Below, piece after piece: positions 18,969 through 62,036 of a stretch of DNA of 64,000 nt. Source of the stretch: Argopecten irradians (taxonomy: Eukaryota; Mollusca; Bivalvia; Pectinida; Pectinidae); contig NC_091134.1 of NCBI RefSeq assembly GCF_041381155.1, positions 39,577,338-39,641,337 on the forward strand, written 5' to 3'. The translations under genes and the position numbers were made by a program. The notes below the pieces were generated by a model. That model worked only from the letters and a program-made list of their open reading frames with translations, ran no database searches and was not told the DNA's origin. Position 1 is the first letter of the stretch. Every line of letters starts with the position of its first letter.

Positions 18969-21900
18969 TTACAGCTCATCATGCTCGTTGTCGTCTGCTA
19001 CACCAAGAGTTCTGTCTAAATAACTCTCCATTTCTCTCATCACCTTCTGGATTTGAGTCCAGTTCTGTAACACAAGCAATAAGACCTTTAATTACGATTA
19101 AAATATTTTTAAAGCATTAAGTCCATTGGACTCTGCTTTCTTAAAACAAACTTTAGACTTAAAAATTCTATAGCCAAACCATTTAACACAAGGTATATAT
19201 GTAAACTGAAGTCAGTGCTTTTTTTGTTTCAAGCAACCAGGCCAGAACAGAAATATAAGGACACCTTGCCATACAGAAGCCGGTAGGTTGTGTGAAGAGT
19301 TCACAAAGGGAGTTAGGTAACTTTTTATCCAATTGATAAGGGATGATGAATTTACTTGATTTGTTTGTATTTAAGATTTTTTTCACAGCAAAGATCATCC
19401 ATTGAAGGATGTACCCATATGGGATTCGAACTCGCAGCCCAGGGGTGGAGAACTAGTGCCGCAGGACATCTTAACCACTTGGGCACCACAGCACCAGGGG
19501 GCATTAGGGAACAACAGTTGAGATCATCAACCTAAAGCCATTTATAGAGCCAACCATTAAATATAAGGGACATACAGGAAAGGAGTTGCCAAGGAGACAG
19601 AAATTACTGACCTCTTGTGTAGTTTCTTTCAGCTCCCTTTTGGTAAATATGTCATCACCATTGGTATCCACTAATGAGAAAATCTAAAATGAAAAATTCC
19701 AGATAAGGAGGAGAGCACAACAACTGGTCACATTGGAGAAATTCATCGTTAAGGTCACGCAAACTTAAATCCAAATACACAGTCCATAAATATGCTTAAA
19801 CATGACTACTATATACTATTTACATTTTCTGTATGCCTTTCCATATCTTTCCTTGTTAAAAATCAATTTTGCACTAAAAAAATTGATTAATGAATATTCC
19901 ATACAAAAAATCCACAATCCCCATCCTATTTTACTTATATGTATTTTTTAAGCTCCCTAAGTTAATTAATGGTTCTGCCAGCATCAATATCACTTTCAGC
20001 AATGATAGGCTCTTACTTTGACACACTCACCTGTCTCAGGTACAATAGATATTCATCCCCGGCATTTCTCTCTTTTAACATCTCTAAATCTTCCTGTAGC
20101 ACAAATCCATCAAAATTAGGTCACAATGTATGGAATAATGTCATAAATATTAAATATGTGAAACATTTTGTTCAGCAGAGGTCTAACATGACATATCATT
20201 GCCACTAAACTTCATTGACAAATGACCATATAAAACCGTCAAAATGCTCTTCCATTATGTTTCATAGTAACTGTTAATGAAGCATGTGATGCATCAAATT
20301 ATACACATCTACATGTATATGTTACCACAGTTGACCAAGATTGTATGAAAATTCAGAGTTATTGACTATTTCACAAAACTTGTGTATTGTAACCTGGTTT
20401 CCATGGCTTCATAAAATTTCTGCCAAGAAAAGCCTCCATGCCAAAATATGCATAATCCAAATCATTCCTGTTAAGTTTCATTGAAAATGATGCAGTTATG
20501 TAGGAAGAGTTGTCCGGAGAAACAGATAAAATGGTAGACGGACGACAACAGACACACAAACTGTTGGTATAATGACTATATAACTAACAAGTCCGGAGAA
20601 ACAGATAAAATGGTAGACGGACGACAACAGACACAAAACTGGTGGTATAATGACAATATAACTAACTTGTCCGGAGAAACAGATAAAATGGTAGACGGAC
20701 GACAACAGACACACAAACTGTTGGTATAATGACAATATAACTAACTTGTCCGGAGAAACAGATAAAATGGTAGATGGACGACAACAGACACACAAACTGT
20801 TGGTATAATGACTATATAACTAACATATTACACTATAGTGATGCCTGAATATACCCAGCTAGAAGTTAATTACTATCGCTGTCATTCTATCCAACTGTGG
20901 AATATATCAAAGACAAACTGAAGTCAGTTTATGAGAAAACAACTGACCAATCACAGGCCCACAGAGACTTCATTTAAAGATTACAGAGGAGTTACACCAA
21001 ACTTCAAAGCCAATACAGTGTACTATTGTACATCAAAGGACCACAAACTAAATCGTCACATCATTTACACAAGTCGTTACAAATAGAGCCTTCAGTTTAA
21101 CTACAACATAGTCCAGTAGTCCATAAAACCATAGTAACAGTAATCCCTGGAGTATTCAGTTTAACTACAACATAGTCCAGTAGTCCATAAAACCATAGTA
21201 ATCCCTGGAGTATTGAGGATGACTGACCCCTGATTTTATTGCAATCCTCTAATACAGAAACAATCTAGCAAAATGTTTGTTCTTCAAAACATCAAAAGAT
21301 TTACTGAGACATTATTCTATCCAAACTTTGATTCACTAACAGGTAGACACTGTCAAACCATCAAAATACTCACCCCAAGTAAAGCTCTTTGGAATCTTTT
21401 GAAAGAAATATGACTAGAGATTCCTAAAAATGATTCAAAATGATCCCTGGAAAATACAGAAATAATATCATGTAAAATATTGAAAGAAGTCAGATCCAAT
21501 CTACCGTAGTTAAAAATATAAAATTACACAGTTTGGAGACTATTGATTATATATTTAAATGTTCATATAACATAATGCTAACCCAAGAACAGATTTGTGT
21601 ACGTTGGTAACACTTATTTTATAAGTTAAACATTCACAGAAGAAATTAAGACTTTAACACACCTAATCCCATCAACAGTTGTCATTTCTCCAAATCCCCT
21701 GAACTCTAAAAGGTCAAGGGTCATCTGATGGTCACACAGGGCATTACAAAGGTCAAGGTTGACCTCTGGAGCTATGTGATGGTTCCACCAGATGTTTACT
21801 GCCAGGTTGTTGCCATACGAACGCACCTGGTGAATCCTGTTAAAAACAACATAAGTCATTTGAAACTTACATTTTGTTATAAATATTCAATGAAGCAGAT

Positions 21901-24682
21901 GTACAAAACTTCTGATAATGTAAACATATTTTATGATGACAAGGTTTGTGGCAACTTGGCCAGAATTAATATACTCAAAGGAGTATCATGAATATTCTCT
22001 CGAATATAATTTTACATGTGTTTATTATGGGGTATAACTCTACCCTATTTAAGTATTATGACTTGTCAGAACATGGCTTGTGGTATGACATGGCTAAATC
22101 AGCTATTTATATAATAATAAGTTGTCTTTTCCCTAGCAACCACTGATAACCCTGTGAAGTATGATCATCTGATCTAAACTCCAAAATTTCTGATAAAACC
22201 TCAAAAGTATATATTATTCTAATACATTAACTGAGAGTAACTCACCATCTATATGGGATATAGAGACAGTCGCCGGGCTCCATACTGACATGGATGTAGT
22301 CTACCTCGGCCAGTCCTGGGTAAAGTGTATAGTCTACCCTGTAACACAAACACCTCAATATATCTAAGCAACTACAACTAAGGTCCTGCACTTATTACAC
22401 ATCAACATTGTACTAAATTTAAGTTTCTTATTTCAAGTTCAAGACATTTCATAAAGTGAAAGAAAGACCATTGCTTGACATTGATTTCATCTCTATACAG
22501 TGTTTTCATCAAATTTTACACTTGTAGAACTAAAGCGTAATCTGTAAGTACGGAGAAAGAACAATCAGGTGTTTAGTGATATCTATATTTAAAGCTCTTG
22601 GTCATGTGATGCACTATCTTTAACTACCTGGTCATGTGACTTACCTGTCTACATCTACTGCGGAATAAGAACCCTCGGGTCGGTCAAGGTCTACCTATCA
22701 ATAATAAAACAACAAAGATTTATGGTCTGTAGAACGCTGCTAAATATTACTGATCACAATGGGAAGTAGGATTCAATGTTAAACTCAAGTTATGAGATAA
22801 TTTACAAAAATTCTATTTAATCAATATTGAGGACTTGTTATAATCAGTGACTGCCGAATTTGTTCAACTCAGTTTTCTTTAAAGATACTGAAAGTCTTGA
22901 ACATGCAAATTGCCAAATCATTACAGCGTGTAATGCTTCTAGGCTCTAGCAAGAATATGGTACTCAGATGTTTCTTTATTCCAGATTCCATAATCTTTAC
23001 CTTGTCCCCATACTTGCTGGGGTCGACAAGAATGAATTCCTTCCTGCCACGGTACAGACAGTTGATGTTGTCTACAGAATCTGTATGTACGACGGAATGT
23101 GTCCCTCCACTGCTATACCACATCAGCTGTTCAACACAAGATATACATCATTGATGGCTACATGTAACATATAAAGTAAGGAGTTCTGACAGACCAAGGC
23201 TTCCAATTACCTTACATTCCAGAATAGTATCATGTAATAACAATATTGGCAAGCAAAGATGTGAATTATTTAGATTCAGATTCAAACATTTATTGCAACT
23301 TAAAGCTAGGACCAATGTAGTTCAATATCTCCTCTCTTCTAACAATGGCTTTAGAGTCATATATGCCATACATGCAAATCACAGTGGTAGACCATTGCTA
23401 TTCTAAAAAGTTCCCTGAGTGAGTTATACTCAAACTGCATTTTATTACAGCTTTTCGGTGTAGAATTGTCAAACTTTATGTGCAGACTCCAGCTCTGTTA
23501 ACTAGATTGATGTTAACTTCTAGGATCATTATCTAATTTATAAACTTATTGTGTAGGTCACCAGTGTACTGTTCTTATTTAGAGATTACAACACTAACAG
23601 TCTATCAGTGTCTGGCGACAACTTCTAAAGCAAAAGAGATAGTTAACTTGGATAATACAAAATGTGGCAAAAGGAAATGCAACATCCCTGATGGCAATCT
23701 AGATATGTCAGTTAACAAATTTGATATAAAAATACTGGAATTTATAAATGCATGTCCAGTAGACTCACCGCTTCTACAAGTCCTTTCTCAGCCAAATACT
23801 GGCACTGAATGGGACATGGTAAAATGACATCATTACTGAAACATAATTTATAAAGGGTGTTTACTTTGGTATTAATTGAATTACATAAATGTATCATATT
23901 TTGTTAGTCTTTCCTTAAAATAAAGATATCAACTTGTTACAACTAATATTTTCCTACAAGTTAGATGATCATCCTTGAAATCAAAAACCCCAACTATACA
24001 TATGTATATATGTTTCTGTTGAAATGAAGCCACTTAAACTTTACTAAATCTAATACCGGTACCGTTATTAGTTTTAAGATGTGGATAAGTTGGCATAGTC
24101 ATATATAAATTAAAGATATCAAGATTTTCCTACAAAAATGAAAATGCTTAATTATATCTGCATGTACAGGTATATAAAACCAGAATCCAATATTAATATT
24201 ACAGTTTGATCAATGACAAAACATGTTGTTTAGGTTTTTCGTTGAATTTAAGCAGAAATCCAATATACGTACCGTATTGTCTGGGGTACCGAGTTTACCA
24301 TGTAAATCTCAGAGTTGTTATATTCTTTCACAAACTGATGAAAATCCATCTGCAAGACTTTTTGTTGTCTACTTTCTTTTTTAACAGTTTCGACTGTCAC
24401 TGTTTCTTCATTCGACATGTCAACTGACAGGAAATAATCGTCTGTCCATTTTGTAAACGCTGGCGATATAGAAGCAGCTCCTTTCATTTTCAGTGGTTTC
24501 AGAGCATAAACGTTATTTTTCCAAAATGTCTCCGGGTCTGGTGCTATAGCCGTTTCCTCAACTTCGACCATCGGTCTTCCATGTCCGAATGGTTTCAAGT
24601 GGCCTGGTGCTTTTGTCAGATCGGCTTTTATTTTGTTACATGAACATACCATGATGACAATCAACGCATATAGGTATTCCAT
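18969..24682 (-). CDS. ER-luminal JmjC-domain hydroxylase with EF-hand and HDEL tail
   Basis: Ten exons on the minus strand: 24682-24273, 23835-23769, 23126-23001, 22694-22645, 22338-22246, 21836-21663, 21446-21374, 20093-20031, 19683-19612, 19064-18969. All junctions are GT-AG, phases agree, and the total is 1224 nt (407 aa). Residues 1-20 form a signal peptide (hydrophobic YLYALIVIMVCSC). Residues about 120-270 are a JmjC/cupin fold: H173-T-D175 and H251 (in WIHQVRSYG) are the iron ligands, K188 is a candidate 2-oxoglutarate contact, and GDCLYIPYRW precedes the distal His. Residues 358-369 (DTNGDDIFTKRE) form an EF-hand loop with acidic positions 1, 3, 5 and 12. The protein ends H-D-E-L, the ER retrieval signal. 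The start is supported by the signal peptide. By family this is an Fe(II)/2-oxoglutarate hydroxylase; the substrate cannot be inferred. The small exons 2 and 4 (67 and 50 nt) are required by phase and by family content. Confidence 0.92.
19421..19496 (-). mobile_element. tRNA-derived SINE head in intron 9 of the JmjC gene
   Basis: Read on the minus strand it has an A-box-like tggtgcccaagtgg, an anticodon-arm-like middle, and a B box gagttcgaatccc, with tRNA-Leu-like spacing. The acceptor stem does not pair well and no clean 3' terminus is visible, so it is a SINE head or tRNA pseudogene, not a working tRNA. It is on the same strand as the host gene. Confidence 0.55.
20510..20830. repeat. 78-bp tandem repeat, 4 copies, in JmjC intron 7
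   Basis: Four copies of a 78 bp unit starting gtccggagaaacagataaaa, containing tggtagacggacgacaacag and ending ggtataatgac[a/t]atataactaac. Copies are over 95% alike by eye. The period is a multiple of three, which explains a spurious open frame on the minus strand. Confidence 0.9.
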
Positions 24683-24762
24683 GATGATATGGTATGTAAT
24701 CTATGTACATACAAGCACCTGCCAGTCTGCCTGGGACCGCAAGACTGTTGTTTACATACAAA

Positions 24763-30053: not shown

Positions 30054-33000
30054 ATGGCAGAAAATGGTATAACTCTTGCTTCAGAAGACGGACTTTTGGC
30101 AGATAAAATGGAATCCAAAGAACATACACCTGAAAACCTTGAAAATCACCAAAAACTATTAGATTACGGAATTAATGCAAAAATTGCTGATGAAGTCCTG
30201 AACATTTATGAATCAGGTTTGTTAAATTATCACTGATCAATATATATTAGTGAAATTTTTATATCATTTATGCACTAAAATGTTGCAATCCACAGTAAAA
30301 CTACTTTCTCAATATTTTTGTATGATCATTGATCTGCTGTGTATTACATAGCAGTGATTTTTCTCCTTATATAACTGGGGTCGTATTCCCAATGCCAAAC
30401 CCCGCTATTTTTTTCCCAATTACAATGAAAAATTCCCAAATCAAATCTCCAAAAAACAAACAAAACTGAAAAGCTCTCCCCTTGTTGTTTAATCTAAAAC
30501 AATCTACTCTGAAACTGTAGTTATGGCCGTCACCTTTTGATAAAATGAAACAGTTAACTGCTTTACGATATCTAATCGCTTATTTTACCATGTTCAGAAA
30601 TGGGTAACTTTTTTCCAAAACTGTTCTTTTTGCAATTAAAAATTCCCAATTTGTTACAAAAACTTTTTTCCCAAAATGCCCTGAAAAATCACTGCATAGT
30701 TAATAGTATCAAAATATCAGATGCTGCATTTACAATATATTGTACTATAGATTTCTAAACTTCACTTCTAATTAATTAAGTTTCAGTTGTCTTTGTAGTT
30801 GATATTGTATGGACCCAAATTATCTTAACCCTTTAAGCGCTTGTCACCGCAAATGTCGTTCCGCTAGTATCGGTCTCGTAATGTTGGTCACCGCAAATGT
30901 CGTTCTGTTGACAACCTTTTTCACACGGCTCTTAGGTATTTCCCATCCACGTGTTTATAAATAAAAATGATTCTGATTGGTTGTTTAGGCCCCAAACTAG
31001 CATAACAGCGTGTGTGTACTGATACTCTCGGCGGGAGTACTACGATATGCTATGTTGAACAGGCCCCGACAGCAAACGTAAACAATTCGTAAATTCCATC
31101 ATGGCGGCCGCTTTTGACTCAGACTGGGACAGTGACGAAGACGATAATATTGAAAATATCTTCAATGAAAATAGTGACAGTTAAACTGAATTTAAAGGTT
31201 TTGGGCCCGAGTATATTGTTAGGAATGGAGCACTAATTGCTCACATTGATATAGATGATTTCTCGCCCGAGAATGACGACGAAGACAACTCGGACAAAGC
31301 GGAGGGTTGGATGAAATCATCGGGGCCACCTTTTTGTGTCCCGTTTACAAGGGAATCAAAACTTATTATTAATATGGAAAATCAGGAACCTATAGATTTT
31401 TTTCACTTATTTCTAAATGACGATTTTTTAAATATTGTTGTCCAACAGATTTATATGCCGACCGCAAAATATCAAGGTCGTCAAGGAAATCACTCGCGTA
31501 TCTTCGAGTGGAAACAGGTGTCACTCGAGGAGATGAAAGCATTTATTGGTCTTGTTATAGCGATGGGATTGTCCATAAAACCGATACTTACTGGGCAACT
31601 GAGAACGTTATTTTTACTCCATTTTTCGGAGACAAAATGTCTAAAGATCGTTTCCAAAATATTCTCTCAAACTTACACCTGTGTGACAACGACACCTTCA
31701 TACCTTTGTATATTATCGCCAGGTATTATTACCTGCTAATGACGAGGACTCTGATGAAATATCTACCTCCTGAATCAGTCCTTCAGAACCGGTAAACTCA
31801 CAAGAAATGTGTGAAATAATAATCACAAAGTCAGAATTTACAACATACTTAGTTTTATTTCATAATTCAACGACAATGTTTACCTGTCAACTAGAGCTAT
31901 GATTTACCTGTTCACACCTGAAATATGAATCAATTAATCACCAAAAACTAATTAATTCTATTCCTTGCTGAAGAACAGGAATAAAGAATGATAGTTAGGT
32001 GATTTACATTATAAATACTCCTACTTTATGGAATTTTGAAGAAAATGTATTTATTTACCTGTAATTTTTACCTGTAAATCCTTACCTGACAAATTTTTAG
32101 AGACAAATTTACCATCTATGTAAACCTAAACATCTACTGAACAAAATTTGTATATATGTCTATTATTGAAAATGGCATGGAAAAAATGTTATTGAACATT
32201 AAATAAAGGTATTCATAATTTCTGTATTTCTTCAAATTAATTCAACAGTGCGGCCCCTTGTATAGTAAGAGTATATAGCGCTTAAAGGGTTAACTTATTT
32301 AAAAAGATATGAACATTATCTTTTCAGGCAAACTCAAACACTGTGATCTGGATGAAAGGGCGCTGGATGCTCTGAAAGAATTCAACCCAGATGATGGTGT
32401 CTCAGTTCTGAAACAGTTCAGCGATGTTTGTCTGAAACATGTTGCCAACAAAAGTGCATTTTTATGTGGAATGATGAAAACTTATCGTCAGAACAAAAAA
32501 CAGGGCTCATCAGCAGCTACAGCAAAAGGACCAGATGAACAAAAATTAAAAGTAAGGCATACATTTATGTTGTATGCATTGTTGAATTTTCCCCAATGCA
32601 ATTGTCATGCAGATAAGGGCTGTGCCATTACATAATTTTCCAAACTCTAGGGGTGCAGCAGTTAACCCGGTTTATTGGTATACTGCAAAACATTGCAAAA
32701 CGATACAATACCGCAATAGGAATGTGATTACCGGTTTGCCTGATTAAAACTACTAACTTTGGTTTTGATGCCTGGAGGGTATATTACCTTCTTTACATTT
32801 CTTGCTTCCTCTTTGTGAAAGCTGGTGCCTTCAATAATACAAGAATACTTCATTTAACATTTTACAGGGTTAGCTCCCTTGTGGATAGGTATTGATTGTG
32901 ACGTCATTATTGAGCAAAATTAACACCATTTTCTCTGAAAGGTATGACATTTCACTCGAAAACACATGTAGTTTACGTGACGTCACTATCAATACCTACC

Positions 33001-36000
33001 TGCAAGGGCAGGTAACGCTTTAATATGCAAAAACAGAATAGATAAATTACAACAAACCTTGATGGGGAAAATTAACTTTTTATTTTAGGACATTTTGGCC
33101 AGGACGGGATACTCTTTAGACGTGACCACTGGGCAAAGAAAATATGGTGGACCCCCTCCTGGTTCAGAAGAAAGTTCAACTCCACCTGGATCTGGGCACG
33201 AGGTGAGTCTTCTATTCAACCTGAATTTGTTTAGGTATGGAAGATTAAAATGGGTGATAAAGTTCCATTTTCCCTCTGTAGATAATGGTACTTATTTTCA
33301 ATAAATTAACCTTTTGTTTTTGAAAACAAATATTTCAACAACTTTTCTGCATTAAGCTTGTGTTTAATAAAATGATAGTTAAGTATTACACTTCTTTAAA
33401 AACAAAAAGAACACCATGATATTAACAAAACAAAAAAACAAAACAAAAACCAAGAAATTCCAATATCGGTTTTGAAGGAGAAAAAATAGCTTGCAATTCC
33501 AATACCGGTTTTAACAAACTCTTTTATTTCAGATCTTTGTTGGGAAGATCCCCAAAGATGTGTTTGAAGACGAACTTATACCTCTGTTTGAAGAATGTGG
33601 AAAAATTTGGGACTTGCGTCTCATGATGGACCCCATGACTGGATTCAACAGAGGGTATTGTTTTGTGACATATTGTGAAAAAGCTGGAGCTCAGGAAGCT
33701 GTCAACAAGGTAATTGTGATAGTCTTATTGACATGGTATGTCTATTCCAGAATATTGTTTCTACCTAGCTTGTCTTTTCTGCCATGTCATAATAATGTAT
33801 TCAGGGTTCTCATTAAAAGCTGGTTGCTGGCAAAAACAGCTGTCTATTTCCTTGTTTACAACAGGCTATTTTTATCAGAAATAAGTATTAGCCACCATTA
33901 GGGCCTGCTGCCCCGAACCACCTATTTGGGGCCTGTGGCTTTGAATTTTGGAAAATGTGCGACAAAGCAAGATATGGGAAAAATTATAATATATGAAATA
34001 AATCACAGCAAATAAGATTTTTTATTTTCAGTGCAGTTTATGTACTTTCTGAAGCCAATTAAACTATATTTAAAAGCCATTTAACTAAATTTTTGCAATA
34101 TTTTGGGATAGTTTTCTAGAAATTTTGATTTTGGGAAATTTAAGGCTTGAATTGGGAAAAGTTTAAAGGCTTTGTCATGGGCAATTTGCATGAAAATCAG
34201 CCCCATATCATGCTGGAAAAAACAGTGTTATGCCATCCACATGAGCATACATATTATTATTCACTCTGTATGAGGGGAGGGTGACAACACATATTCGGAC
34301 AATAGATTTCTTGGCTAGGTTGTTACCAATTCCTTAAGTAAAAGTGAATTTACAGATGTAGTTCATGTGGATTATGCTGAAATTTTTCCATTGTAGCTTG
34401 ACAACCATGCAATTAAAGAAGGAAAAAACATAAAGGTAAACATCTCTGTTGCCAACCAGAGATTGTTTGTCGGTAGTATCCCAAAGAACAAGTCACGAGA
34501 GGAAATATTGGAAGAATTCACAGGCAAGACCGGTATGTAGTTGAGTTGTAAAATAACAAGAAACTCTTGATGTGGAAGAAAGATTTGTTTTTAGAGTGTA
34601 ACTTGTTTAGGTGTATGTTGAATTTCTAGTGAGATTATTGTATGGACATGAATCATTTCTATAAGTATCTTTCTCCTGTTGATAATTTGCCTTTTTTTTG
34701 TTGTTGCAGTGATTGTTGGGTCTGTTACATTTTTAGACAGGCAACTTGCCAATTTATATCGGCATTAAAAAAAATCATCAATCAAGATAAATTGTACAGC
34801 TAGCTTTCTTCATAAATGAAACAAATCAATGTAAAGTTGTGCCTGTTAATGTAAGCAAATATGTTCAATGTTGAATTTCATTTTCTTATGCAATATGAAT
34901 TTCTTTTCAGAGGGTCTCACCGATGTTATTATATACAGATCTGCTGATAAAGAGAGTCAAAAGAACCGAGGGTTTGCCTTCCTGGAATTTGATTCTCACA
35001 AGTCCGCCTCTATTGCAAGAAGACGCCTTGCCTCTGGTAGGGTGAAAGTGTGGGGGGCACCTGTCGTGGTTGACTGGGCAGATCCTATTGAAGAGCCAGA
35101 CGATGAGACTATGGCAAAGGTACTCTATACATTTACCCACATGGTTAACACAGTCTAAATGTGAATATAGACATATCTTAGTTTATTTATACTGTAAATT
35201 TTAGTGGCGACACATTACAATGCTTTTTAACTTAGTCTCCAAAGTTGATTGACATGATTTAGGCTTGGATGTTTCTTCTATATCGATATCCATATATTTT
35301 TGTTATGAATTATTTCACAATAAAAGCACTTGCAAAATAACAATATATTTGCAGTATTAGTAATAAAACTGTAACTGATTAAATATATATGAAAACGCTG
35401 ATGTACTGTATAATCTAGCTCTTTAAATTTGCGATGTCAACATTTTGCAGTTACTTATACGGAGGTTAGATTTAGTCTGCTACTGTGGATTTACCAGTGT
35501 AATGTTTGGGTGTTGACTTGCCAATATTCTGTTGTAGGTGAAAGTACTGTATGTTAGAAATATCTCCAGGGATGTTACAGAAGAACTACTCAAGGAAAAA
35601 TTTGGTGACTTTGGCAAAGTCGAACGGGTTAAAAAAATCAAGGATTATGGATTTATCCACTATGAGGAACGAGAGGATGCCGTGAAAGCCCAGCAAGAAA
35701 TGGATGGCATGGTAAGTTTTAATAACCCAACAAATGGCTGGTTAGTTGGCAGTTTTAGCAGGAACATACCAACAGTTGATGTTTGATTCCTTAATCAGAC
35801 CTAAACAAATATTGGGTCATCTGGATGACTGGATAGTGGATACCTAATACCTATTGGAGTACCTCCTCGAGACTATATATATACGTCTGATAGATATCTC
35901 TGCTCAGAATCCCTACTTTAAGTCCTCTAAAATCTATTCTGGAAAATCTGGTCAGGTTGACCTATTTCTTTGCAAGGATCTATATTATAGATATACGACT

Positions 36001-38398
36001 GCACTGGTTCCTATACTGGCTCATATCGTTAGTGGAGATATTTTTCTCTCTGTACGCACATACTTTATTTAGTGACGTGTATTAAAAGCAAGAACCATCT
36101 CATTTTATAAATATCTTGTTTGATAACTTCTTTGAGCAGTCATTTTGAAATTCCCATGCTGTCTCATGATCACTAGTCTATTTCAATGTTATTTGTCACC
36201 CGTATAACCTTATTTTATTCAATGTAATAGGCATTATAGGTATTATATACTCTTGTCAATAGAGGGTCAAGTTAATATTATTTCAGGCTTGCTGCAAAAT
36301 TGATGAACAACCTGGTACAGGTTTGCAGAGAAATCTTATTTATTTTCATACATTCAGGAACTTGGAAATCTTAAAATAGAAGTCTCCATGGCCAAGCCAC
36401 CCACTGAGAACAGGAAAAAGGAACACCGAAAACGCGACCAAGAGAGAAGACACATGTTTATGGCCATGGGAAGAGGTGGCTATTACGGGTAAGAAAAATC
36501 GCCTAGTACTGCTTGTGTTGTGTTGTTAAGTTGGCTGGTTTGATAATAAAGTAAATAGTTGGCTGGTTTGATAATAAAGTAAATGGAACTGTTACAATTC
36601 ATTAGCTTCTTCTGCTTGATTTCACAAAAAGAGGTCACAATGTTTGGCCTTATACTTTTATCTTGTATAAAAAAGACTTATTTTAAACATATCAGAGAAA
36701 GAGCAAAAAACACTGATCTTTTATAAAAAGTCTTGTTTTAAACATATCGAAGAAAGAGTAAATTAACATATCTTTGATATAAAGGACTTGTTTTAAACAT
36801 ATCGGAGAAAGAGCAAAAAAGCTGAAGTTTCTATAAAGTGTTAATTTTCTTGGCAATTGAATAGATAAATATATATATGCTTTCATAACTTGGATGTTTG
36901 GGGCGTATTTTTTTTGTCACCTGTAGGATTCTAGCCAACAGGTTAATATACTTGGTTATTCTCGTCTTACAAAAGTCCCATTCTTTGTCGAGGCATCTTT
37001 TGGAGGTTTCTTTCCTATCCAACTTTTCTTTATTACAGGTATGATGATTACTGGGGTCCGCCGATGAGGCCACCAATGCACCCGAGAGGAGGGATGAGGC
37101 GTCCGGCAGGTCCACCAATGCCACCCAGGGGTTACGGTGAGTTGATAGTAGTTTTGTGTTCCGTTACCTTTACTAATTTTCTTAAAAGTTCCATCAAAAC
37201 CCTTTCAATTATCCAAACTCAACATCTATTCTCATTTACACTACAGAACCATGACACATTTGTAGAGAAAAACTTGCTAACTTGCTTCATTTGGATAATG
37301 CAAATTTTCATCCAGTTTACATTAAGCCTATACCTACCTATATTTGAAATAATAGTGAGCTTATTTTATGTTCATAGAGTACTACGACGATTTCTACAAC
37401 TATGACGACTTCTACGACTATGGTTACCAGCAAGGCCCAAGAGGCGGACGTGGTGGACGCGGCGGGCAACCAGTAAGTAATCTTATCCTCACTACATTCT
37501 CCACAGGGAAACACTAGTGTCTGTATCCTTTGCGGAGAACAGTCCATTCTGTGTTCCTCACTGGGAAACAGAGTGTGACATACTGAGAGCGGGTAAATTG
37601 GATAGATATAATTATAATGTTAATATAAGTCAATTATATGAGGAAAAAAATAAAAAATAAAGTTCCAAGTGTACAAAAAAATTTGATGATTTAAATTTGA
37701 AATTATCCAGATTATTAAAAAAAAATCTTTCTATGCTAAATTCAATTATTAAAATATTCTGTAAGAAAACATTCTTAATATTTAAAAATTTAGTTTCAAT
37801 TATTCAAGAAGTATACTGTGTTTGAATTGGGTGATATTTCCACAGTGGGTAAAGTTCTGTTGCTTCTATGTAAAGTCATGAAGATATTCTATAGATGGCG
37901 TCCAAATCTTGACCAAAAGATATCTTGATGATTTTACAGTAGAATGAACATGGCTACTCCAGTAGAAGTATTGCCAAATTTTTATGTACATGTTGACATT
38001 GCCTCTTCCACCCAGTCAAAGCAAACCTTTAATGTTGATATAAATACATGTATTGTTTGCCGCAGCCAATGCGAGGTCGAGGAGGCGGACCCCCCAGGGG
38101 TGGTGGTCCTAGAGGTGGCATGATTCCTCGGGGAGCAAGAGGAGCTATGCGAGGGTCTAGGGGGATGATACGGGGTCGTGGGGGTGCAGGAGGGCCTTCA
38201 TCACCTCCACCAAATAGAGGAGGAAAGAGGAAAGCTGGAAATGAAATAGGACAATCGCAAACGAAACGACGCAATACACAAGAAAATTGGGGAGCCCAGC
38301 CCATCGCACAGCAACCTCTTGATCAATCGGGTAGTTATGGTGGAGACTACAATGACACAGAATGGTACCAGGACTCATATGGGCAAAATTGGGGTTGA
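30054..38398 (+). CDS. SYNCRIP: hnRNP Q/R (SYNCRIP/HNRNPR) homolog, copy A
   Basis: Eleven coding exons: 30054-30216, 32328-32551, 33089-33202, 33533-33709, 34397-34532, 34911-35119, 35538-35711, 36358-36488, 37039-37136, 37378-37472, 38066-38398; all GT-AG, phases consistent, 1854 nt, 617 aa. Order of domains: acidic helical N-terminal domain (about 30-125, [15 protein letters not shown]); RRM1 (168-243; [14 protein letters not shown] at 207-214); RRM2 (249-325; [14 protein letters not shown] at 291-298); RRM3 (344-410; LYVRNI, DYGFIHY); Lys/Arg-rich linker; Tyr/Asp cluster ([17 protein letters not shown]); RGG repeats; bipartite nuclear signal ([17 protein letters not shown]); and a QNWG C-terminus. 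This is the layout of SYNCRIP/hnRNP R, an RNA-binding protein of mRNA splicing, transport, translation and decay. The ATG is the first in the exon after acceptor 30033, with a 20 bp leader. Intron 1 carries a piggyBac relic. Copy B lies 18 kb downstream in the same orientation. Confidence 0.95.
30352..30694. mobile_element. MITE with CAGTGATTTTTC ends in intron 1 of gene A
   Basis: Left end cagtgatttttc and right end gaaaaatcactg are exact inverses, and both are flanked directly by catag (30347-30351 and 30695-30699). The interior has repeated ttcccaa motifs and no coding frame. A CAGTG start is common in hAT elements, but those duplicate 8 bp; only 5 bp match here, so the superfamily is left open. 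Confidence 0.7.
30829..32289 (+). mobile_element. piggyBac relic in intron 1 of gene A
   Basis: The 1461 bp element starts ccctttaagcgct and ends agcgcttaaaggg, flanked by TTAA at 30825-30828 and 32290-32293, the target-site signature of piggyBac. Just inside the left end gtcaccgcaaatgtcgttc is repeated twice about 50 bp apart, like piggyBac subterminal repeats. It carries a disabled transposase remnant (31101-31795); the catalytic region is gone. The right end lies only 34 bp upstream of coding exon 2, so the insertion places transposon sequence in the branch-point neighbourhood of that exon. Confidence 0.9.
31101..31795 (+). pseudogene. piggyBac transposase pseudogene (N-terminal part)
   Basis: Starts at ATG 31101 in a good context (catcatggcg) with an acidic N-terminus typical of piggyBac transposases. 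An in-frame TAA stands at 31182. The frame then reopens with the family's N-terminal domain ([32 protein letters not shown]), shifts frame near 31585, and continues as [13 protein letters not shown] and [10 protein letters not shown] before diverging near 31690 and stopping at 31795. The conserved aspartates of the DDD catalytic domain and the C-terminal Cys-rich finger are absent. The copy cannot encode an active enzyme. Confidence 0.9.
32869..33016. mobile_element. 148-bp inverted-repeat element in intron 2 of gene A
   Basis: Left arm gttagctcccttgtggatag then gtattgattgtgacgtca; right arm tgacgtcactatcaatacc then tacctgcaagggcaggtaac. Arms of about 38 bp are inverted with several changes, each containing a tgacgtca CRE-type palindrome. 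Non-coding MITE. Confidence 0.75.
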
Positions 38399-59400: not shown

Positions 59401-62036
59401 TGTTGTTTTTCAGGTTAAAGTGTTGTATGTGCGAAATCTTACCAGTGATGTCACAGAAGATCTTCTCAAGGAAAAATTTGGTGAATATGGCAAGATTGAA
59501 CGTGCCAAAAAGATCAAGGATTATGGATTTATCCATTATGAGGAAAGAGATGATGCCATTAAGGCTCAAGAAGCGATGAATGGCCAGGTGGGTGCTGTAT
59601 AGGTTAATGGAGATACCACAGCTTTGGTCATGTCTAGTATATGTTTAAAACTTAATTGATTCTGAATCATTTCTCAGTTTATATATTAATATTGAAAAAA
59701 CACAAAGTTGTGTACTGATCTTCAGAAATAATTCACAAGACGTGTTGACCAAAAATGTCTTCTTTCAGTCTTCAGAGGTTTACCAAATTTGACATGTTAC
59801 GGCACCTGTTAATCAGCTACCACAACTCAGGTCCTGCCCAGTATAATCAGTTGCAGGGTTGGCTGCCAGTTGTGAATATAAATTATTAAAACTTGACAGA
59901 GTCTATAGTTTTTCTGTGGCTGTAGATATGTTACAAGATTTAAAACAGATACTTGAAAAATTTATTGTGAGATTGTTAAGTTTTTCAATGCTATTGAATC
60001 TGGTGAGAAATTCATTGAGAAGTTTATTGATTGCAGAAATTGGGCAAACAAGAAATCGAAGTCTCCATGGCGAAACCACCAACAGAGAACAAGAAGAAAG
60101 AACAGAGGAAACGTGAACAGGAGAGAAGACAGATGTTTATGGCTGTAGGAAGAGGTGGTCCATTTGGGTAAGATATTGAGATTTTAGACCTGCAACTTTT
60201 ATTACAGGTCTTCGGTATGGTGGAGCATTTGAGAAAGTACAAATATCCCAGCATTGTTTTGAATTCTATGTTATGTAGCATTAGTGAATGTTTGTTATAG
60301 ATTTGAAGCATAACCTTTTGTTTTGGGTTGATATGTATTATAAGACTCTTTCATATGTGGATATGAAGGATAGGGGTATTCTACCCGAGGGTAACAAAAT
60401 GTAGTAAAAAACGAGGCTTGCCGAGGGTTTTGCAACATTTTGTGATCCCGAGGGTAGAATATCCTTATCCTTCATATTCACTTATGAAAGAGTATTTTTC
60501 TTTCATACCTCGTAGTTTTATTGCAATTTTACAACTATAATATCCCGCCATTTTGAAATAAATTCGAAGAAATCTACGACTGGAAGTCAATTTTCCATAC
60601 ATGAAAAATGATGTGATATTTTCAACACAAATTTCATTGTGTGCATATTTTATAGTAAAACCAGTCATATTTGTGGGGGGGGGAATGTTTAAATTTTACC
60701 GAGGAAATAGAGATTTTGTTGACGCCGTGACGTCACGAGGCTTTATTGCATGGGTAGCCATGCAATACAGCCTCAGGCGACAAGAGTGTATTGCCCTGGA
60801 CCAGCCAGTATTACACCTGTAGGTATGAAAGAATATCTGTTATTGTATGCATTACCTACATAATTATACAGATATGATGATTACTGGGGTCCACCGATGA
60901 GGCCACCCATGCATCCACGAGGAGGAATGAGACGTCCAGGTCCACCCATGCCACCAAGGCCTTATGGTAAGTTTTAGTTGTTGTCTTAATTTCATTTAAA
61001 GTTTTGATTTTTTGAAAACATGTATATAATGCTCTTTTTCAGATAATGAAACTTGATTGGAATGTTTTAGGAGCTTTGAAAAAACCACTTTTACAGTCAA
61101 ATTATAATTCACATGACAGGCAAACCTTGTGTTGTAAATGACCATATTGTTAAAAGCAGTTGTGCCTTATAAGCTAAAATATTGTTACTATGAATTACTA
61201 CCAAGTTGTTGGTTTTGTAAAATTTGCTAAAATAAAATCATTTTCTGTAGATTACTATGACGATTACTATGGCTACGATGAATTCTACGACTATGGATAC
61301 CACCCTGGACAGCGAGGAGGTCGTGGAGGCCGAGGCGGACCACCACCAGTAAGTTTCTTCTCTGTTGAAAAATTGTGCTTTCTTTATTTTCCCCAAATTT
61401 ATCTTCAGTTTCTGATGAATGCTTCCTGTAACAATCATTCAAAGTTTTGATGTTTTTTACATGAATTGATCTGATGTATTCTATTAAAAATAAACTCAAC
61501 ATTAATCTAATTCGTTTTTACATCAATAATAAACAAAATTAAAAAGTAAATAAAAAGATAAAATATTTTTATATAATTATATCCAAAATAAGTAATGCTG
61601 GTATGCATATATATTAAGTTATTCTGTTTGTATTGTATGTTTCTATTCTGTCAAAGCAAACCTTTAATGTTGATATAAATACATGTATTGTTTGCCGCAG
61701 CCAATGCGAGGTCGAGGAGGCGGACCCCCCAGGGGTGGTGGTCCTAGAGGAGGCATTATTCCCCGGGGAGCAAGAGGAGCTATGCGAGGGCCAAGGGGGG
61801 CTATGAGGGCACGAGGGGGAGGACCCCCACCAAAACCAGTCCCACAGTTCAGAGGAGGAAAGAGAAAAGCTGGAAACGAAATAGGACAAGCCCAAACAAA
61901 ACGACGCAATACACAAGACAACTGGGGAGCTCAGCCCATTGCACAGCAACCTCTTGATCAATCTGGCAGTTATGGTGGAGGAGGATACAATGATGCACAG
62001 TGGTACCAGGATTCATATGGGCAAAATTGGGGTTGA
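56483..62036 (+). CDS. SYNCRIP: hnRNP Q/R (SYNCRIP/HNRNPR) homolog, copy B
   Basis: Eleven coding exons: 56483-56651, 56995-57221, 57708-57818, 58081-58257, 58433-58568, 58899-59107, 59414-59587, 60037-60167, 60872-60966, 61251-61348, 61701-62036; GT-AG, same phases as copy A, 1863 nt, 620 aa. Domains match copy A: acidic N-terminal domain ([15 protein letters not shown]); RRM1 from residue 170 ([14 protein letters not shown]); RRM2 ([14 protein letters not shown]); RRM3 (LYVRNL, DYGFIHY); the K/R-rich [10 protein letters not shown] linker; a Tyr/Asp cluster; RGG repeats; and the [16 protein letters not shown] nuclear signal ending QNWG. No lesions, so both copies look functional. Amino-acid differences concentrate in the N-terminus, exon 6 (RRM2) and the RGG spacing; exon 4 and the start of exon 11 are identical to copy A in DNA. 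Introns are shorter than in copy A and hold two small foldback elements. Nothing separates the two genes functionally from sequence alone. Confidence 0.95.
59286..59368. mobile_element. 83-bp TTAA-flanked MITE in gene B intron 6
   Basis: Left end ctctttcacccc and right end gtggtgaaaggg are inverse with one mismatch and one extra base, flanked by TTAA at 59282-59285 and 59369-59372. Size, ends and TTAA fit a piggyBac-type MITE. It sits 45 bp upstream of the exon 7 acceptor. Confidence 0.75.
60363..60475. mobile_element. Foldback element in gene B intron 8, copy 2 of the 13189 family
   Basis: atgaaggataggggtattct with acccgagggtaacaaaatg on the left pairs with cattttgtgatcccgagggt and agaatatccttatccttcat on the right. 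Flanking tttcatatgtgg and tatgaaagagt add to the symmetry. A possible wider border is the ggtatgaaagaatatctg near 60823, which would make this the left part of an insertion of about 480 bp filling most of the intron. Confidence 0.7.

Follow-up and report, generated by a model that had tools for sequence, protein, structure and literature searches.

We analysed a 64,000-nucleotide stretch of the Argopecten irradians genome (NC_091134.1, positions 39,577,338 to 39,641,337), called here the window; it is part of contig C1 of an 845.8-Mb scallop assembly. On its minus strand, from 24682 to 18969, lies a gene of ten exons and nine introns that spans 5.7 kb and encodes a product of 407 residues. An earlier reading of the letters alone (the sequence-only reading) had proposed a phase-consistent ten-exon gene with iron ligands H173, D175 and H251, an EF-hand loop at 358-369 and a terminal HDEL. 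Re-joining the exons reproduced it: all junctions are GT-AG, the phases are consistent, and the motifs fall at 173-175 (HTD), H251, 358-369 (DTNGDDIFTKRE) and 404-407 (HDEL). The exons are these:

Exon 1, residues 1-136: 24273..24682, minus strand; hydrophobic start (putative signal peptide; helix 2-15 in the model), N-terminal JmjC/Cupin_8 part, sequon N122
Exon 2, residues 137-159: 23769..23835, minus strand; C144, invariant C148
Exon 3, residues 160-201: 23001..23126, minus strand; T168, H173, D175, N179, C182, K188
Exon 4, residues 202-217: 22645..22694, minus strand
Exon 5, residues 218-248: 22246..22338, minus strand; barrel strand with C242
Exon 6, residues 249-306: 21663..21836, minus strand; third iron ligand H251, W265, invariant C279, C283
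Exon 7, residues 307-331: 21374..21446, minus strand; degenerate first EF-hand unit (helix 303-314, strand 319-321, helix 322-330)
Exon 8, residues 332-352: 20031..20093, minus strand; linker and first half of the second EF-hand's entering helix (345-357)
Exon 9, residues 353-376: 19612..19683, minus strand; canonical EF-hand loop 358-369
Exon 10, residues 377-407 and stop: 18969..19064, minus strand; last helix, terminal HDEL

The exon 3 residues comprise iron ligands and residues predicted, by alignment to JMJD5, to bind 2-oxoglutarate (2OG). Two repeats lie in introns of the gene: a 79-bp tandem repeat in intron 7/8 (20511-20826; four copies, 95% matches) and a 64-bp repeat of two copies.

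The sequence-only reading had asked for a transcript across all ten exons. A 397-residue protein, P0001, encoded by a 1457-base contig, aligns to residues 11-407 with two mismatches (T94P and N360D). Because the gene covers 5.7 kb and has nine introns, a contig of this length is most simply a cDNA. The match supports the splicing of all ten exons, exon 1 from M11 onwards, with exons 9 and 10 included. An upstream start that would remove the signal peptide had also been feared. An in-frame stop lies just upstream of M1 (the stop-to-stop open reading frame, 24248..24700, opens ITYHII-MEY), so no longer start is possible within exon 1; an additional exon further 5' is conceivable. P0001 itself begins at M11; codons 1-10 rest on the genomic open reading frame and on the Pecten, Ylistrum and Mizuhopecten homologues, whose starts are hydrophobic. 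Identity to scallop proteins ranges from 82 to 99%, and a Pecten maximus protein is 89% identical over the full length.

Is the JmjC domain equipped to be an enzyme? Its active-site residues are intact. The Pfam models Cupin_8 (E 9.5e-34) and JmjC_2 (23.9 bits) both match over their cut-offs; PF02373 JmjC scores 19.4 bits, under its cut-off of 24. Three protein searches, from which we took the best 120 of 136, 170 and 186 matches, together gave at least 186 different proteins, and 186 homologues were aligned with the window protein. H173 and H251 are present in all 186 homologues and D175 in 185, the sole exception being P0073, with Asn; the predicted 2OG lysine, K188, is kept in 185. An AlphaFold 2 model (mean predicted local distance difference test score, pLDDT, 89.5; predicted template-modelling score, pTM, 0.83) and the fold matches both recover the double-stranded beta-helix; in the model an EF-hand pair follows it. 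The nearest solved folds are JMJD5, then TYW5, JMJD7 and FIH: all are Fe/2OG oxygenases.

The C-terminal part of the model contains two helix-loop-helix units: one whose loop is short and degenerate, then one with the 12-residue loop, acidic at positions 1, 3, 5 and 12. In one protein such a motif is weak evidence, since an EF-loop-like pattern arises in 7.9% of shuffles of the scallop protein and its Pfam EF-hand scores stay under the cut-off (15.7 against 25 bits). Conservation argues that it is real: 162 of the 179 homologues that reach this column have an acceptable loop. Most of the remaining 17 differ at position 1, which is Asn, or at position 3, where Thr or some other residue stands; two have gaps. 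EF-hand_6 matches 40 of 52 family members at E <= 0.1. With one good site, the pair probably holds calcium. The earlier description of a domain fused to an EF-hand thus needs amending. An EF-hand is there, as one of a pair rather than singly; the domains do share a chain, as an ancient animal architecture and not by a local fusion.

Several features point to the lumen of the endoplasmic reticulum (ER). On a crude hydrophobicity scale, 162 of the 179 homologues begin with Met and a hydrophobic stretch, and most of the others look truncated. The chain ends in EL or DL in 171 and in [KHR][DE]EL in 116. Iron triad, EF loop and tail occur together in 155. The sequence-only reading had asked whether the combination exists elsewhere; it recurs across many invertebrates. 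Going by species names, we take the homologues to come from Mollusca, Brachiopoda, Annelida, Nemertea, Bryozoa, Platyhelminthes, Rotifera, Cnidaria, Porifera, Placozoa, Echinodermata, Hemichordata and Chordata (amphioxus and tunicates).

The cysteines tell a similar story. In the 187 sequences C148 and C279 are invariant, C182 is kept in 186 and C242 in 185, the remainder being gaps. In scallop and mouse KDM8 the positions of C182 and C242 are not Cys, and C279 lies beyond the aligned part. C144 and C283 occur together in 49 sequences, are jointly missing from 138 and are never found singly; when the windows are relaxed, the first (C144) side alone shows a cysteine in 18 sequences. As C148 lies four residues after C144 and C279 four before C283, a simple reading of this pattern would be two stacked disulfides, C148-C279 and C144-C283. 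These leave C182 and C242, which probably pair on neighbouring barrel strands. Disulfides so predicted fit an oxidising compartment.

We conclude, with a probability of about 0.75, that the gene belongs to an animal family, so far uncharacterised, of predicted soluble, ER-resident Fe(II)/2OG oxygenases acting on secretory-pathway proteins. The luminal JmjC hydroxylase proposed by the sequence-only reading is thus well supported, as a predicted activity and location, by sequence, conservation, the invariant cysteines and the model. The signal peptide would carry the chain into the ER lumen, where it would fold with the help of disulfides C148-C279, in molluscs C144-C283, and probably C182-C242. 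The JmjC barrel would hold Fe(II) through H173, D175 and H251, bind 2OG near K188 and hydroxylate secretory-pathway proteins on their side chains. One calcium ion would sit in the C-terminal EF-hand pair, and HDEL would return the protein to the ER via KDEL receptors. Protein is the likelier class of substrate: the nearest structural relatives modify the side chains of proteins, except TYW5, whose target is a tRNA base, and a luminal enzyme would not meet tRNA.

What would the calcium site do? One proposal is a switch: the EF-hand pair would fill and empty during ER calcium release, opening and closing the substrate groove, so that hydroxylation reports luminal calcium. The conserved loop (162 of 179) speaks for it, and so does P4H-TM, described in PMC7948501 as an ER 2OG hydroxylase that binds calcium through EF-hands near its active site with a dissociation constant (Kd) of 23 μM. 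That value, however, lies under the resting ER calcium concentration, given there as 100-800 μM; at rest P4H-TM would be saturated, and a release from the store could elicit a response. Disruption of the EF-hands of FKBP22 altered neither of the two activities tested (PMC10607241). On these two grounds, the P4H-TM Kd and the FKBP22 result, we regard the switch as possible but doubtful; a constitutively filled site that stabilises the enzyme or its substrate groove is more likely.

Two further observations bear on the switch. Asp at EF-loop position 12 may weaken calcium selectivity, and 82 of the 186 homologues have it, which counts against a switch. In its favour, one family search of the scallop genome itself gave a paralogue on C15 (C15:2096910-2100962; L017, L019) whose iron site reads H-S-H. 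The EF loop in its possible tail exon is broken, which would fit a joint loss of the two sites; this exon is only a candidate part of the C15 gene. The paralogue keeps the four family cysteines and has Leu for W265. The candidate last exon, 1.5 kb downstream near 2095405, encodes an EF-like loop that lacks its Asp, and its reading frame closes with HKEEL.

Comparison with these proteins also delimits the family. P4H-TM shares with the scallop protein a place in the ER lumen, two EF-hands and 2OG oxygenase chemistry, which for the scallop protein is predicted (PMC7948501). Unlike it, P4H-TM is not a JmjC protein, is membrane-anchored, has its EF domain within the catalytic domain and binds calcium at both EF sites. 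We rejected a protein of P4H-TM type, as the scallop EF-hand pair follows the JmjC barrel and the chain terminates in HDEL. FKBP22/FKBP14 have an EF-hand pair and an HDEL tail in common with the scallop protein (PMC10607241), but are prolyl isomerases with an unrelated catalytic domain.

That the protein is a non-catalytic ER chaperone or calcium buffer, using the JmjC fold for binding only, appears improbable. JMJD8, which PMC11241480 calls the first ER-luminal JmjC protein, lends this idea some weight: it is described as having a signal peptide, no domain but JmjC, and a conserved His where the iron-binding Asp would stand (PMC5684140). The C15 paralogue, like JMJD8, has His at this position. 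Yet the triad and 2OG lysine are near-invariant in 186 homologues, which would be unexpected for a pseudoenzyme. Judged against that description, JMJD8 and the scallop protein have in common the JmjC domain, a putative signal peptide in the scallop protein's case and an ER-luminal location that for it is predicted. The scallop protein keeps the Asp, and its JmjC domain is followed by the EF-hand pair and HDEL. The earlier contrast with JMJD8, as far as it was drawn on the EF-hand, is supported and has sharpened, the iron Asp being kept here and replaced by His there (PMC5684140). With D175 and the EF-hand pair present, we rejected identity with JMJD8 as it is described there.

Database names for family members are TYW5-, JMJD5-, JMJD7- or KDM8-like. 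It is very improbable that the gene is an orthologue of TYW5, KDM8/JMJD5 or JMJD7, as these automatic names and the nearest PDB sequences and folds would have it. A separate KDM8-like scallop locus on C8 (L001) shares 54% identity with mouse KDM8 over 254 residues and 26% with the window protein; being far closer to mouse KDM8, it led us to reject the window gene as the scallop KDM8/JMJD5. The signal-like start, family cysteines, EF-hand pair and ER tail set the scallop protein apart from JMJD5/KDM8, an arginyl hydroxylase, and are foreign to the solved relatives. TYW5, JMJD7 and FIH are not known to have an EF-hand pair or ER tail. The TYW5-like and JMJD7-like annotations look like the transfer of the nearest name.

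Finally, it is barely credible that the gene model is an artefact, whether a pseudogene or separate genes merged into one: the sequence-only reading rested on genomic sequence and codons 1-10 lack transcript support, but P0001 is continuous from M11 through exon 10 and the Pecten maximus protein matches from end to end, which largely refutes the idea.

How old is the family? In a tree that was built with FastTree from 187 sequences, with two KDM8 sequences as the root and leaving aside TYW5, JMJD7, JMJD8 and FIH, 170 sequences including the window protein (support 0.999) separate from 13 (support 0.945), among them Nematostella, Porites, Asterias, Lytechinus, Glandiceps and Branchiostoma. Because each clade contains cnidarians as well as bilaterians, the duplication seems to pre-date the split between them. 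A class-B paralogue on C10, which the tree does not put inside the 13-sequence clade, has a signal-like start, PPGHLEPLGSH, an HND iron site and, in one open last exon, the EF loop DEDNDGLLDWPE and a KMKHEEL terminus. The terminal HEEL is coded inside a 53-bp minisatellite of 13.3 copies (L018 6789-7505; C10:17567188-17567904), and in one frame or another several of these copies likewise encode KMKHEEL followed by a stop. Two near-identical Cupin_8 loci lie in opposite orientation about 50 kb apart on C8 (C8:7534653-7589624; L002, L003).

A broader proposal, speculative and as a whole unlikely, is of an ancient animal ER enzyme that would carry out O2-dependent hydroxylation of secretory proteins gated by luminal calcium. 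Its two classes would pre-date the cnidarian-bilaterian split; sponges, placozoans, cnidarians, spiralians and invertebrate deuterostomes would have kept it, and vertebrates and ecdysozoans lost it. In some scallop paralogues the iron and calcium sites would decay while the cysteines and ER tail persist.

Elsewhere in the window, exons containing RRM domains (RRM_1, E 1.7e-13) occupy 33515-38395, and an RGG-rich exon (38039-38395) is nearly repeated at 61674-62033: a gene for an RNA-binding protein has probably been duplicated locally. A transposase fragment lies at 31185-31736 (DDE_Tnp_1_7, E 9.2e-7).

In the open-access literature we found no paper on a JmjC domain with EF-hands and an ER tail; subscription papers fell mostly outside that search. 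As far as our searches show, a known fold and a known luminal enzyme class meet here in a combination that is new, broadly conserved and uncharacterised. The ER 2OG hydroxylases described so far shape collagen, EGF domains and oxygen responses. If the family is active, invertebrates would have further luminal protein hydroxylation, so far invisible because its members are named as tRNA, histone or cytosolic enzymes. It would also offer a JmjC protein whose single chain, inside a calcium store, bears both a calcium site and a site that depends on oxygen and iron, so that cross-talk between them is directly testable. Corrected names would stop invertebrate biology from being wrongly interpreted in terms of wybutosine synthesis or histone marks.
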